64,000 nt of DNA from Sulfurisphaera javensis. Lineage in GTDB: Archaea > Thermoproteota > Thermoprotei_A > Sulfolobales > Sulfolobaceae. Location of the stretch: contig NZ_AP031322.1 in the NCBI RefSeq assembly GCF_041154675.1, positions 744,001-808,000 on the forward strand, given 5' to 3'. Both the position numbers and the translations under genes were made by a program. Below, piece after piece: positions 3,131 through 64,000 of the stretch. Positions within the stretch are counted from its first letter, which is position 1; each line of letters begins with the position of its first letter. The notes under the pieces are model-generated. The model did no database searches, was not told where the DNA came from, and saw only the letters and a program-made list of their open reading frames with translations.

Positions 3131-3300
3131 GTATTACAGTTTTACAAATAAAAAGTTTTTGGTAATGGAAATTTAGTAGAAATCGTAATCCATTGTACTG
3201 TCAGCTAAATATGAATTATTTCATAGTTGTTGTGTTTATTTTAATAAAGTCCTTTTAAAGAGAATTTAGATAATTTTATTTATTTAATAAAATTAGAGAA

Positions 3301-4311
3301 TTACTCAACAATTTTACTCACATCTTTGAATTTTGATGGATCACCTAGAACAAAAAGTATCTCTCCAGGCTTTACTTCAGTTTCTTGTGTAAAATAAGGA
3401 TCGAGTTTTCCGTTATGTAATATTGCTATTGGAATTACACCCTGAGGCAATTGATTTAGTTTTATGCTTTTCTGAACTTTAAAAATTCCAATTGAATAGT
3501 CTCCCTCGGCAGAAGGGTACACTATTCCAGCAAAGTTCTTCGATATTGCAGCTGACGCCATAATTCTTCCCATAAAATCCTCATAAGGTATTACAATATC
3601 GGCGCCAGCAGTTTTAAAAACGTCAATTAGAGAAGAATCTTTAACCATTGTAACTATTGTTAATGGTGGATTTAATTTTTGTACTTTTAATGTAATTAAA
3701 AGCGTCTGAGAGTCATCATCCATAGCGATTATAGCTGAATTAGCATTCTGAATTCCAGCAGCTATAAGATTATTTTCATCTTGCGGGTCACCAAATATGA
3801 CTTTATCACTCTTTAGCTCTTCATAAAGCTTTTTAGAACTCGTTACTACAACATAGTCATTTCCTAATACTTCAAGTCTTCTTACTGCTGATAGTATACT
3901 TTCTGTATTTCCTATGAGAACATAATGCCCTTTCATTAATTTTCCTCTCCATCTTGCCCTTGCGTCTATCCATGTATTCCTGTTTAAAATAGTTGATATT
4001 AAAGATTGAGCCATGCTAGCAAATAAACCTACTGTGAAAAGTATCATAATAGTTAGGAAAAGCTTTTCTTGCGAAGGCATTTGATTAATATTTGGAGCAT
4101 AAAGCCCTACAGTAGTGATCACATTTACAGCAGCATAAATTGCTGAAATCCAATCTAAGCCTTGATAATATACAAATACAAGGGCAATAATGTAAACTAC
4201 TATACTAAGTAATATTAACTGAACGTAAATTCTCCTTAAAACTGAATACGGAGCTGCTATAAATTCAAGAATACGTATAACATACTTATTCCAAAATCTT
4301 AATCTGTCCAC
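3301..4311 (-). CDS. Potassium channel with RCK (TrkA-N) domain
   Basis: A 336-residue two-helix ion channel: a membrane helix near residues 31-50, a pore loop near 55-72, a second helix near 84-107, then an RCK/TrkA-N Rossmann domain (GHYVLIGNTESILSAVRRLE) and a TrkA-C-like end. This is the MthK layout, in which the cytoplasmic ring gates a potassium pore. The selectivity filter reads T67-V-G-L-Y71 instead of TVGYG, so ion selectivity may differ. The start is GTG at 4311 with a TTTAAAC box about 26 bases upstream, giving a leaderless transcript. Confidence 0.82.
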   Translation of the reverse strand: MDRLRFWNKYVIRILEFIAAPYSVLRRIYVQLILLSIVVYIIALVFVYYQGLDWISAIYAAVNVITTVGLYAPNINQMPSQEKLFLTIMILFTVGLFASMAQSLISTILNRNTWIDARARWRGKLMKGHYVLIGNTESILSAVRRLEVLGNDYVVVTSSKKLYEELKSDKVIFGDPQDENNLIAAGIQNANSAIIAMDDDSQTLLITLKVQKLNPPLTIVTMVKDSSLIDVFKTAGADIVIPYEDFMGRIMASAAISKNFAGIVYPSAEGDYSIGIFKVQKSIKLNQLPQGVIPIAILHNGKLDPYFTQETEVKPGEILFVLGDPSKFKDVSKIVE

Positions 4312-4400
4312 AATCTATGATATTCCTTTGTATGTTTAAAGTTTTCTAATGTTAAAGTAAGTTTAAATTATCATTATCAAAATTCAAACTTACTTAAAGC

Positions 4401-61005: not shown

Positions 61006-61359
61006 TTATTGGTCGGAATGAATCTCAATCAACTTTTTTGCATGTTTGAAATAGTCTTTTGCCTTTTCTTCATCAACAACATGTAACTCAACTGGTGCAC
61101 CAAAAGGCAAATTATATTTATCCATAGCTATGTTTAAAACTTGCTTTTTTAATTCTCTTCTATCCTTATCAGATAATTGATAAGGGAAAATGATTAAAAT
61201 ATCTATATCACTTAGAACAGTAATTCTATCTTCAGCTATTCCACCAAAGACATAAACCTTTACATTTTTATCAATTTCCTTTGATGCTTTAGCTATAATT
61301 TCAGCATATTCTTTCCATCGTCTTAAATGCTCAAATTTATATTTAACCCAGCTTGACAC
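61006..61359 (-). CDS. MNT-type nucleotidyltransferase (antitoxin)
   Basis: A 117-residue minimal nucleotidyltransferase. FGGIAEDRITVLSDID carries the full G-G and D51-x-D53 catalytic pattern. It starts with GTG at 61359 inside the HEPN gene; GAGGAGAT lies about 10 bases upstream. It should neutralise the HEPN partner by AMP transfer, as in known HEPN/MNT modules. A second, partly damaged pair lies at 29280-29901. Confidence 0.75.
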   Translation of the reverse strand: MSSWVKYKFEHLRRWKEYAEIIAKASKEIDKNVKVYVFGGIAEDRITVLSDIDILIIFPYQLSDKDRRELKKQVLNIAMDKYNLPFGAPVELHVVDEEKAKDYFKHAKKLIEIHSDQ

Positions 61360-61768
61360 GTTTACTTATCTCCTCTAATTTATTTATAATTTTTTCAGCA
61401 ATTGAAATAGCATTTTCCGCCTGTGATTTATCATACTCCATCTCTCCATACCTACTTTCAATATAAGCATCTTCTAGCTCAGACAGTTCATTCCTATATT
61501 CCCTAGCAAGCTCTAGAATTTCATCCGATAAATCGGGATAGCTGTTTTCTTTTAATAGCTTAGCTAAATATGACAACAGTGTTCTTACTTCATGACTTTT
61601 GAATTCAGAAGCAAATAGTTCAAACAATACTGCCTTTAGATAAAGCTGGATTGCTTCCTCAGCATGAAACATAGCTAGATCATAGAAACCATCATTTATA
61701 TCCTTCTTTGCGTCACTAAGAAACTGTAAAGCTCTTCTCTTAAGTCTTTGTACTTTTATACCACTCAC
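61343..61768 (-). CDS. HEPN-domain toxin
   Basis: A 141-residue all-helical HEPN protein of the type paired with minimal nucleotidyltransferases. The first helices (QFLSDAKKDINDGFYDLAMF, then AEEAIQLYLKAVLFE) match the family core, with ESRYGEMEYDKSQAEN near the C-terminus. Family members act as RNA-targeting toxins. Its 3' end overlaps the nucleotidyltransferase by 17 bases. This copy is full length, unlike that at 29280. Confidence 0.75.
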   Translation of the reverse strand: MSGIKVQRLKRRALQFLSDAKKDINDGFYDLAMFHAEEAIQLYLKAVLFELFASEFKSHEVRTLLSYLAKLLKENSYPDLSDEILELAREYRNELSELEDAYIESRYGEMEYDKSQAENAISIAEKIINKLEEISKRVKLG

Positions 61769-62121
61769 ATGTCTATCTAAAACCTAAATAAGCTATTAAC
61801 TTAATTCTACGATAGGATATAAATACTACTTAATTTATTAAGCGTAAATTCTACTAATTACTTAAATAGCGTTAACATACATAAATATTATTAAATCGTT
61901 TCATAGTATGATCGTTAGGTATAAATTATTTCTATGACTTTTCCGCTGTTTAATATATCCATTTTAGTCTTGCCTTTATGTAGAGATTCAAATGCTTTGA
62001 ATTTATACCTTCATGACGATATCAGAATCGTTTCTTCTTTTTTCCGGTTCTAATACATTTCTCGTTATATATGCCACCACATAGATAATAGCTCAATAAC
62101 TTTCCTAGTTAACTTCCAAAA
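61769..62121 (-). pseudogene. Decayed region with a dehydrogenase-like gene tail
   Basis: A gene-free stretch of 353 bases. On the minus strand 62010-61915 reads FKAFESLHKGKTKMDI and GKVIEIIYT before TAA, like the last residues of a zinc-type alcohol dehydrogenase, with a TGA just upstream. The end of this fragment (61903-61939) recurs inverted at 59231-59264. The remainder is AT-rich DNA, including the HEPN promoter near 61.8 kb. Confidence 0.35.
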
Positions 62122-62496
62122 TCATTTTACATTATTTTTTGTTCCTTTCTCAAATTCAACTAGTAATTTATCAGCTTTATAAACATTCTTTAGCACTTTT
62201 CTTTCTCCATTATTTAACGTGATTATTACGTTTGAAAACTTTAGTCCTTGATCAATCTTAATCTCTTTGATTTCTTTCCACAAAATTTTCTCTTTCCCAT
62301 GAATTATTATCTTATCCTTCTTCGTAAATATAGTAGGTCTTATAACTAAGTAAATGTCATAGAAACCTAGTCCTATAGTGATTAAAAACAATAATGTAAA
62401 AACACTTATATTAAAAGGAGCAATAGCTAAAGATACTATAAATGTAATAAGAGGAGAAAATAAAAGTATTAGACTTCTTCTATCGAATAATCTCAT
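62122..62496 (-). CDS. Two-helix membrane protein with PH-like domain
   Basis: A 124-residue protein: two membrane helices (residues 8-50), then a strand-rich domain (IFTKKDKIIIHGKEKILWKE, then SNVIITLNNGERKVL) resembling small membrane-bound PH-like domains. I start at ATG 62496, which overlaps the stop of the upstream nuclease gene as ATGA; a TTG at 62520 is the alternative. The coupling suggests it serves the nuclease operon. A homologous gene at 59612 is broken. Confidence 0.55.
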   Translation of the reverse strand: MRLFDRRSLILLFSPLITFIVSLAIAPFNISVFTLLFLITIGLGFYDIYLVIRPTIFTKKDKIIIHGKEKILWKEIKEIKIDQGLKFSNVIITLNNGERKVLKNVYKADKLLVEFEKGTKNNVK

Positions 62497-63704
62497 TTCA
62501 AATAATTTTTCAATATCCAAGATAAAAGGATTAGTGAGAAGGAGAGCTCATTAAAATCTCTTTTTTTCTCACACTTTAATTCTCCTATTTCTGCATTAGA
62601 AATTACATTTTTCCAATGAGTTATTGTAGCCTTATCTGAGGACAAAATCAGACTATCCTTAATTAAGAGGGGATCAATCATAGGGATTATTGCATCACAG
62701 AAGAATATTGGAGTTGGGATCATTGTAGATCTACTTATTAGCTCTTGTAAGTATATCCATGCTAATTCATGAGAAATAATTTCAGCCTTATTTCTTTTGG
62801 GCTTAGATCTATTATTAGCTATTTCAATATATGCACAATAGGGCAAAAGGGTTTGAATATCAGGATAGAATACAATACCTCTATATATTAAATTAGTATC
62901 AATTAATATACCCCTATACTTTCTCATTAGCTCTCTTAGTTCGTATTCCCTGTCAAGAACTACTTTTATCGAATAAAATCCTAACTCCTTATCCAGTGTA
63001 CCACTATTATCATTGAATAATTTTTTAACTAATTCTTCAGGTTCAACTTCTTTTCCATTAAAAGTTATTTTTCCCTTATCTAAAACTAGGAGACAATCTT
63101 CCTCTTCATTCTTTATTCTTATCTCATATTTTCTATCTATACAGAGAGTAATATCTTCTCCAACTCTATAATTATCCTTTTCTTTTACATTAAAGTCAAG
63201 TGAAAGCGAGGCAATTATTTTACTTAGCTCTCTGTTCTTTAGTAATGAATTTATTGAATCTTTTGCATAATCATAATTTATAATATCGTTAACATCTTCT
63301 TTTCCTTTAAACATTGGTACTAGAAATCTAGGTACATAAGGGTAAAATAGACCATACCACGGACCAAAGGGAAACATTACGTGATCTATAGGAATACTAT
63401 TTTTTACTGCCTCGGTGGTAAGTTTTATTACATACACTACTGAAGTTGCTGATGGCACTATTAAATCAGAATCTTTAACCTCTTCTTCTAATGGCATTCT
63501 ATAATTTATTTCCTTAATTTCAATCTTTGGTTGGGTTTTAAGAATTCGGAGAAAACTTATGATATCTTTTAAATAAGAAGTAGCAAACGGTGGATATAAT
63601 AAAACTAACTTATCAACGTCGTAAGATTCTAACGTCCTCAGTATTGTAGTAACTGCTGTCTCAAATACCTTTATTGGTGCTCCTATTGGAATTACTGCCT
63701 TCAT
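62493..63704 (-). CDS. Rossmann/CARF-like sensor fused to PIN nuclease (putative)
   Basis: A 403-residue protein. The N-terminal 130 residues look like a Rossmann-type sensor: VIPIGAPIKVFETAVTTIL, DKLVLLYPP, and DSDLIVPSATSVVYVIKL in the place of the CARF ligand loop. The last 145 residues fit a PIN ribonuclease: D270-T-N, E295, D338 and S-S-D358 (numbered from the TTG three bases upstream). A strand-rich linker lies between. CARF sensors bind cyclic oligoadenylates in type III CRISPR and related defence. It overlaps the HEPN-like gene by 44 bases upstream and a membrane gene downstream. The CARF call is tentative, PIN firmer. Confidence 0.5.
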   Translation of the reverse strand: MKAVIPIGAPIKVFETAVTTILRTLESYDVDKLVLLYPPFATSYLKDIISFLRILKTQPKIEIKEINYRMPLEEEVKDSDLIVPSATSVVYVIKLTTEAVKNSIPIDHVMFPFGPWYGLFYPYVPRFLVPMFKGKEDVNDIINYDYAKDSINSLLKNRELSKIIASLSLDFNVKEKDNYRVGEDITLCIDRKYEIRIKNEEEDCLLVLDKGKITFNGKEVEPEELVKKLFNDNSGTLDKELGFYSIKVVLDREYELRELMRKYRGILIDTNLIYRGIVFYPDIQTLLPYCAYIEIANNRSKPKRNKAEIISHELAWIYLQELISRSTMIPTPIFFCDAIIPMIDPLLIKDSLILSSDKATITHWKNVISNAEIGELKCEKKRDFNELSFSLILLSWILKNYLK

Positions 63705-63999
63705 CAATGCTATTACTTAGTCTCTCTAAATAATTATTTAAATCATTTATAAAGCTTGGAAAAACAGAAAGAACTGTCAGCATAGTTCTGTAATCTACTT
63801 CGTCATGAGCTCCTTTATTTCCAATAACCCTAAAGGCATTAAACACTGAGGAATAGTTTGCTAATTTACCATAAAATTTCATTTTTTCTTCTATTTTCTC
63901 TAGTATATCTACGAAGTTATAAAGAACTCTTAACCCTTTTCCCTCACATAATTCACTATTACTTACGTCATTCCACCCCTTTTTACTTGCGATAGAGCA
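63661..63999 (-). CDS. HEPN-like protein, 5' end beyond the window
   Basis: The frame is open from 63999 to the stop at 63661, at least 112 codons, with the start outside. It is helical, and FNAFRVIGNKGAHDEVD matches the R...GN..H helix seen in DUF4145-like HEPN proteins, which act as RNases or abortive-infection factors. The last 44 bases overlap the PIN-fusion gene, so the two are translated together. An internal ATG at 63882 is unlikely to be the true start because coding sequence continues upstream. Confidence 0.55.
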   Translation of the reverse strand, partial: CSIASKKGWNDVSNSELCEGKGLRVLYNFVDILEKIEEKMKFYGKLANYSSVFNAFRVIGNKGAHDEVDYRTMLTVLSVFPSFINDLNNYLERLSNSIDEGSNSNRSTNKGI

Positions 64000-64000
64000 T

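Follow-up and report, generated by a model that had tools for sequence, protein, structure and literature searches.

Two CARF families with a PIN domain were described in 2014 (PMC4012209), and PIN is among the cyclic oligoadenylate (cOA) effectors listed by the 2025 classification (PMC12669027). CARF-PIN proteins are named in CRISPR classifications, but the literature searched holds no paper characterising one. Csx1 and Csm6 (CARF-HEPN) are comparable in that an RNase is placed under the control of a CARF domain. The HEPN active site is marked by an Rx4-6H motif (PMC3710099). HEPN proteins of the DUF4145 family (PF13643) carry a C-terminal HEPN-like region with an R..GN...H motif, and no report of such a protein paired with CARF-PIN was found in the literature searched. 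Bacterial PH-like membrane proteins such as STM3941 have two N-terminal hydrophobic helices followed by a PH-like domain.

The locus described here was found in Sulfurisphaera javensis, at the end of the window, the whole stretch of 64,000 nucleotides that was analysed (positions 744001-808000, forward strand, of NZ_AP031322.1, GCF_041154675.1; a single 2.57-Mb contig). It consists of three overlapping minus-strand genes (window 62122-64827), transcribed in the order HEPN-like protein, CARF-PIN protein and membrane protein (Table 1), which confirms a preliminary description of three overlapping genes on one strand. The first gene extends 827 bases beyond the window and the contig was therefore extended (L002, which covers contig 800000-819900; adding 55999 to an L002 position gives the window position). 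This extension past position 64000, proposed in the same description, shows the HEPN-like gene to be complete.

The HEPN-like gene overlaps the CARF-PIN gene by 44 bases. The membrane ORF was listed from a TTG at 62520 (62122-62520, 132 aa), and it is through the ATG at 62496 instead that the reported ATGA coupling is present, a 4-base overlap of this start with the CARF-PIN stop. The 44-base and 4-base overlaps suggest a single transcript for the three genes. A 91-aa zinc-finger-like gene, with weak relatives in other Sulfolobaceae, stops 7 bases ahead of the HEPN start and was left outside the system as defined.

Table 1. Features of the three-gene locus and its downstream edge, in window positions (L002 positions in brackets)
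Feature	Position	Strand	Basis or remark
Putative HEPN (DUF4145-type) protein, 388 aa	63661..64827 (L002:7662-8828); C-terminal part 63661..64000 in window	-	ORF and Pfam DUF4145
CARF-PIN protein, 403 aa from ATG	62493..63704	-	ORF; ATG start placed by homologue alignment (404 aa from TTG at 63707)
Regions of the CARF-PIN protein	residues ~1-130 (CARF), ~140-255 (middle), ~262-380 (PIN)		PIN region with D269, E294, D337, D357
Small membrane protein, 124 aa from ATG	62122..62496	-	ORF, overlap sequence, hydropathy, bPH_3 and STM3941 matches
Short interspersed repeat	61902..62022 (L002:5903-6023)		copies of the whole or parts at several other contig sites

The product of the middle gene is a CARF-PIN fusion, a member of a catalogued archaeal family. 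It is matched by the PADLOC model CARF_m3--CARF_PIN (PDLC01983) at E=1.1e-43 over residues 3-392 of 404, as are all 29 of its 29 homologues, and has no significant match in Pfam or NCBIfam. The full-length match, the order of the two domains and the acidic residues of the PIN half are shared with the family. The homologues align from the ATG, and the acidic residues first reported as D270, E295, D338 and D358 therefore stand with their numbers lowered by one. Three of them (D269, E294 and D357) are invariant in all 29 aligned homologues, a diverged set in which identity to the window protein is 16-28%; the position of D337 is Asp in 24 and Glu in five. This conservation is well above chance, as a PIN active site would be expected to show. 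The FGPWxGLxYPxVPR motif in the CARF half is also highly conserved across the 29-member alignment.

The AlphaFold2 model of the protein is confident (pLDDT 89.1, pTM 0.88). Its top PDB match in Foldseek, over the whole length at E=2e-8, is SiRe_0806 of S. islandicus with cA4 (PDB 9jxx), a protein of similar size (about 407-412 aa); the two differ in having 14% identity, no sequence-level match and TM-scores of 0.40-0.44, values that point to a difference in domain orientation or fold detail. No paper naming SiRe_0806 was found in the literature searched, and a search by sequence for a solved CARF-PIN relative gave none. The next matches are structures of Can2, Cdn1, Cam1 and Csm6. The 130-residue Thermus domain 3ix7, presumably a PIN protein, was also matched (probability 1.00, TMt 0.61). 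The family model, the structure model and the fold comparison thus agree with the original reading, in which a CARF sensor is fused to a nuclease of the PIN type. The N-terminal CARF fold proposed there is borne out by the matches to Cam1, Can2, Cdn1, Csm6 and cA4-bound SiRe_0806, and the C-terminal PIN fold by the 3ix7 match together with the conserved acidic residues. The window protein differs from the rest of the family in that it has at most 28% identity to any homologue found, is encoded away from CRISPR loci and has HEPN and membrane genes overlapping its own. Only one member of the set is more diverged (end branch of the window protein, 2.0).

Of 197 genomes sampled across the order, 35 carry homologues of CARF-PIN. 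A scan of a named genome collection with the Sulfolobaceae alignment returned five loci, including those of a Thermofilaceae archaeon, a Caldarchaeum MAG and Vulcanisaeta; the same collection scanned with the CARF-PIN sequence by itself gave no relatives, and none were found in viral contigs and plasmids. A profile built on all 29 homologues had no stretch of sufficient conservation to scan with. The family spans Thermoproteota, and its genes often have cas genes, CRISPR arrays or further CARF genes as neighbours. CRISPR arrays lie within 10 kb of the CARF-PIN gene in five loci (L039, L053, L064, L065 and L066), subtype I-A cas genes adjoin it in two (L036 and L042) and Cas6 in one (L037). In L039 it is near Csx1, a III-D Cas10 operon and an array, and in L061 a CARF7 gene overlaps it by 4 bases. 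This count of CRISPR linkages is a lower bound because only selected neighbours were scanned. Neighbourhoods with CRISPR and CARF genes support a CRISPR ancillary role.

The window is not the only place where a gene for an HEPN nuclease directly precedes that of CARF-PIN, though the one in L045 (L045:7829-10419) encodes Csx1; it overlaps the CARF-PIN gene by 4 bases. This Csx1 occupies the place of the window's HEPN gene, whereas the window's HEPN protein has no CARF or Csx1 match. In L039 (L039:6640-10781), Csx1 lies ~1.3 kb upstream of CARF-PIN with a 149-aa ORF in between.

The host genome contains two Cas10 ORFs, both with intact GGDD, at ~2.39 and 2.46 Mb of the contig, and CRISPR arrays at 2.385-2.424 Mb (one repeat searched). 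Around the operon itself, the window and its extensions showed neither a CRISPR array nor a cas gene, which places the three genes apart from any type III locus detected; both Cas10 loci are ~0.9-1 Mb away on the circular map. Given the CRISPR linkage of the family and the two GGDD Cas10 genes, the best reading of the central gene is a type III CRISPR ancillary effector, a cOA-switched PIN RNase acting in trans, accompanied by two accessory proteins of unproven role. A probability of roughly 0.7 is assigned to this reading.

Under the proposed mechanism, foreign RNA would be detected by the Cas10 proteins of the cell, leading to the production of cyclic oligoadenylate, probably cA4. The ring would bind the CARF domain at the N-terminus, presumably spanning a dimer; the bound domain would allosterically turn on the C-terminal metal-dependent PIN RNase, the four acidic residues of which are intact. 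General RNA cleavage would then slow or stop growth until the infection is cleared. Action in trans on the Cas10 signal is proposed because of the distance to both Cas10 loci. The DUF4145-HEPN protein, probably co-transcribed, would most likely regulate this response or add a second arm to it, whereas the protein with two helices may be a membrane tether or a membrane-disturbing partner. The ligand, activation and substrate are predicted from the family and fold, and each functional link of CARF-PIN with its two partners is likewise putative. CARF-PIN here may answer another signal, as it is strongly diverged and neither CRISPR arrays nor cas genes were detected nearby. A diverged CARF-PIN with overlapping partners, in a genome with two active-looking type III systems, is a testable case which bears on how far effector genes detach from CRISPR loci and combine with second nucleases or membrane parts.

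It is plausible that the upstream protein carries a C-terminal DUF4145-type HEPN domain. Residues 244-342 match Pfam DUF4145 at E=1.8e-4 (21.9 bits against a cut-off of 23.1), and a search with the family gave 22.2 bits, or 25.6 with frame neighbours. The R...GN...H motif first noticed in the sequence is R333-V-I-G-N-K-G-A-H341 (RVIGNKGAH, R333-x7-H341). A stronger Sulfolobaceae DUF4145 protein (L103) has the same arrangement, AIRVFGNYGAH, which makes the DUF4145/HEPN assignment reasonable. Seven residues separate R333 from H341, outside the Rx4-6H spacing, and RNase activity is therefore uncertain. The earlier HEPN-like call thus holds at the family level only, with a catalytic spacing that is non-canonical. 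The protein differs from other DUF4145 HEPN proteins in its borderline score and in an N-terminal domain of ~230 aa in which no family was detected, and is an orphan in this part. Its single-sequence structure model (pLDDT 38) was too poor to use. Searches of 197 genomes from the order and 398 from the phylum, and of plasmids, phages and viral contigs, gave no convincing relative. Weak phylum-level matches, partial and low-scoring, were judged to be chance. A diverged Csx1 was ruled out as there is no similarity, and a by-eye impression of a GATase-like/DUF4350 N-terminus had no profile support.

The downstream protein has two N-terminal hydrophobic helices (~residues 5-55, by hydropathy), as had been described. 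The PH-like part of that description is weakly indicated, by matches of the C-terminus to bPH_3 (E=0.013, 16.4 bits against a cut-off of 23) and of the protein to the STM3941 family (E=7e-4, 19.5 bits against 40). The layout is that of STM3941 and other bacterial PH-like membrane proteins, but the scores fall under the family cut-offs. The protein is an orphan, with no convincing relative in 31 genomes of the family.

Neither the HEPN-like nor the membrane gene was found beside other CARF-PIN genes in the genomes examined, and the trio as a conserved system is therefore not supported. The preliminary description had made its proposal depend on the three genes occurring together elsewhere, and they do so in no other genome examined; the survey of neighbourhoods that it proposed bears out a linkage to CRISPR in other genomes for the CARF-PIN gene alone and not for the trio. 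The "uncommon combination" it named is true as such, but is so far a single case and not a demonstrated system. What the locus holds is an effector of a known kind that has acquired unusual neighbours within a strain-specific island. That one cOA-responsive operon fires two RNases, the PIN and a DUF4145-type HEPN with its own putative sensor domain, together with a membrane protein is unlikely. If true, the HEPN, CARF-PIN and membrane operon would be a previously undescribed composite effector cassette.

The operon lies in a variable, strain-specific island. L002 ~6.0-11.9 kb has no DNA match in three congeneric genomes, where the stretches that match L002 1.1-1.8 kb and 13.2-13.8 kb are found side by side. 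A transferred CARF-PIN may therefore have landed by chance or recently among unrelated orphan genes of this island, as the sole defence effector. This account concerns the partners and leaves the preferred reading of the CARF-PIN protein itself untouched. It is possible, with the odds somewhat against it. In its favour, the partner genes are not conserved, and no DNA of the operon matches the congeneric genomes, where the homologues of the genes on its outer flanks are neighbours. The operon is also set among repeats and toxin-antitoxin copies, and immediately upstream of the HEPN gene there is a separate TATA-like stretch (by eye). However, the 44-base and ATGA overlaps, in one direction throughout, are tight for a random arrangement, and an HEPN RNase gene overlapping CARF-PIN from directly upstream has been seen independently (Csx1, L045). 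The three genes might instead form a CRISPR-independent suicide or abortive-infection module, in which the HEPN N-terminus senses the invader, CARF responds to a different nucleotide signal and the membrane protein serves as an anchor for the complex. The strong divergence of CARF-PIN and the distance of the operon from the arrays and cas genes detected would fit such a module, as would a McrB-like ATPase and possible partner 6-9 kb from the operon, given that DUF4145 HEPN domains are known beside McrBC and restriction systems (PMC3710099). It is nevertheless quite improbable, since other CARF_m3-PIN members often adjoin CRISPR loci, the genome has two GGDD Cas10 genes and the trio is in no second genome among those examined.

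The HEPN protein could also be devoid of catalysis and hold the PIN nuclease in check as an antitoxin-like inhibitor or scaffold. An Rx4H alignment puts G336 at the position of the Arg, and the nearest Arg is the one with the non-canonical spacing to H341. CARF-fused nucleases are not generally known to require an antitoxin, which argues against a need for restraint of this kind. The R..GN..GAH motif is common to the L103 protein, and Anantharaman et al. grade the DUF4145 motif as mostly conserved (PMC3710099), so that a dead inhibitor is quite improbable. A cOA-activated RNase acting in trans is retained as the reading of the central gene.

The repeat at 61902..62022 marks the downstream edge of the operon and has no part in its function. 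Like it, the short interspersed repeats at L002:18280-18370, 3193-3253 and 4198-4375 are MITE-like by size and spread and have several genome copies. An HEPN-MNT toxin-antitoxin pair (window 61006-61768; HEPN E=4e-31, NTP_transf_2 E=2e-8) lies 0.4 kb downstream of the operon and has several copies elsewhere in the genome. Past the window, an overlapping pair at L002:14907-17755 encodes the McrB-like AAA_5 ATPase (AAA_5 E=3e-14; PRK11331 McrB 35.8 bits) together with a protein of 423 aa that matched no family and could be its nuclease partner. Also past the window, on the opposite strand and ~1.9 kb upstream of the HEPN gene, there is a Csa3-like CARF-HTH regulator (L002:10716-11276, window-equivalent 66715-67275), which matches PADLOC CARF3 at E=2e-15 and NCBIfam cas_HTH at 37 bits against a cut-off of 60.
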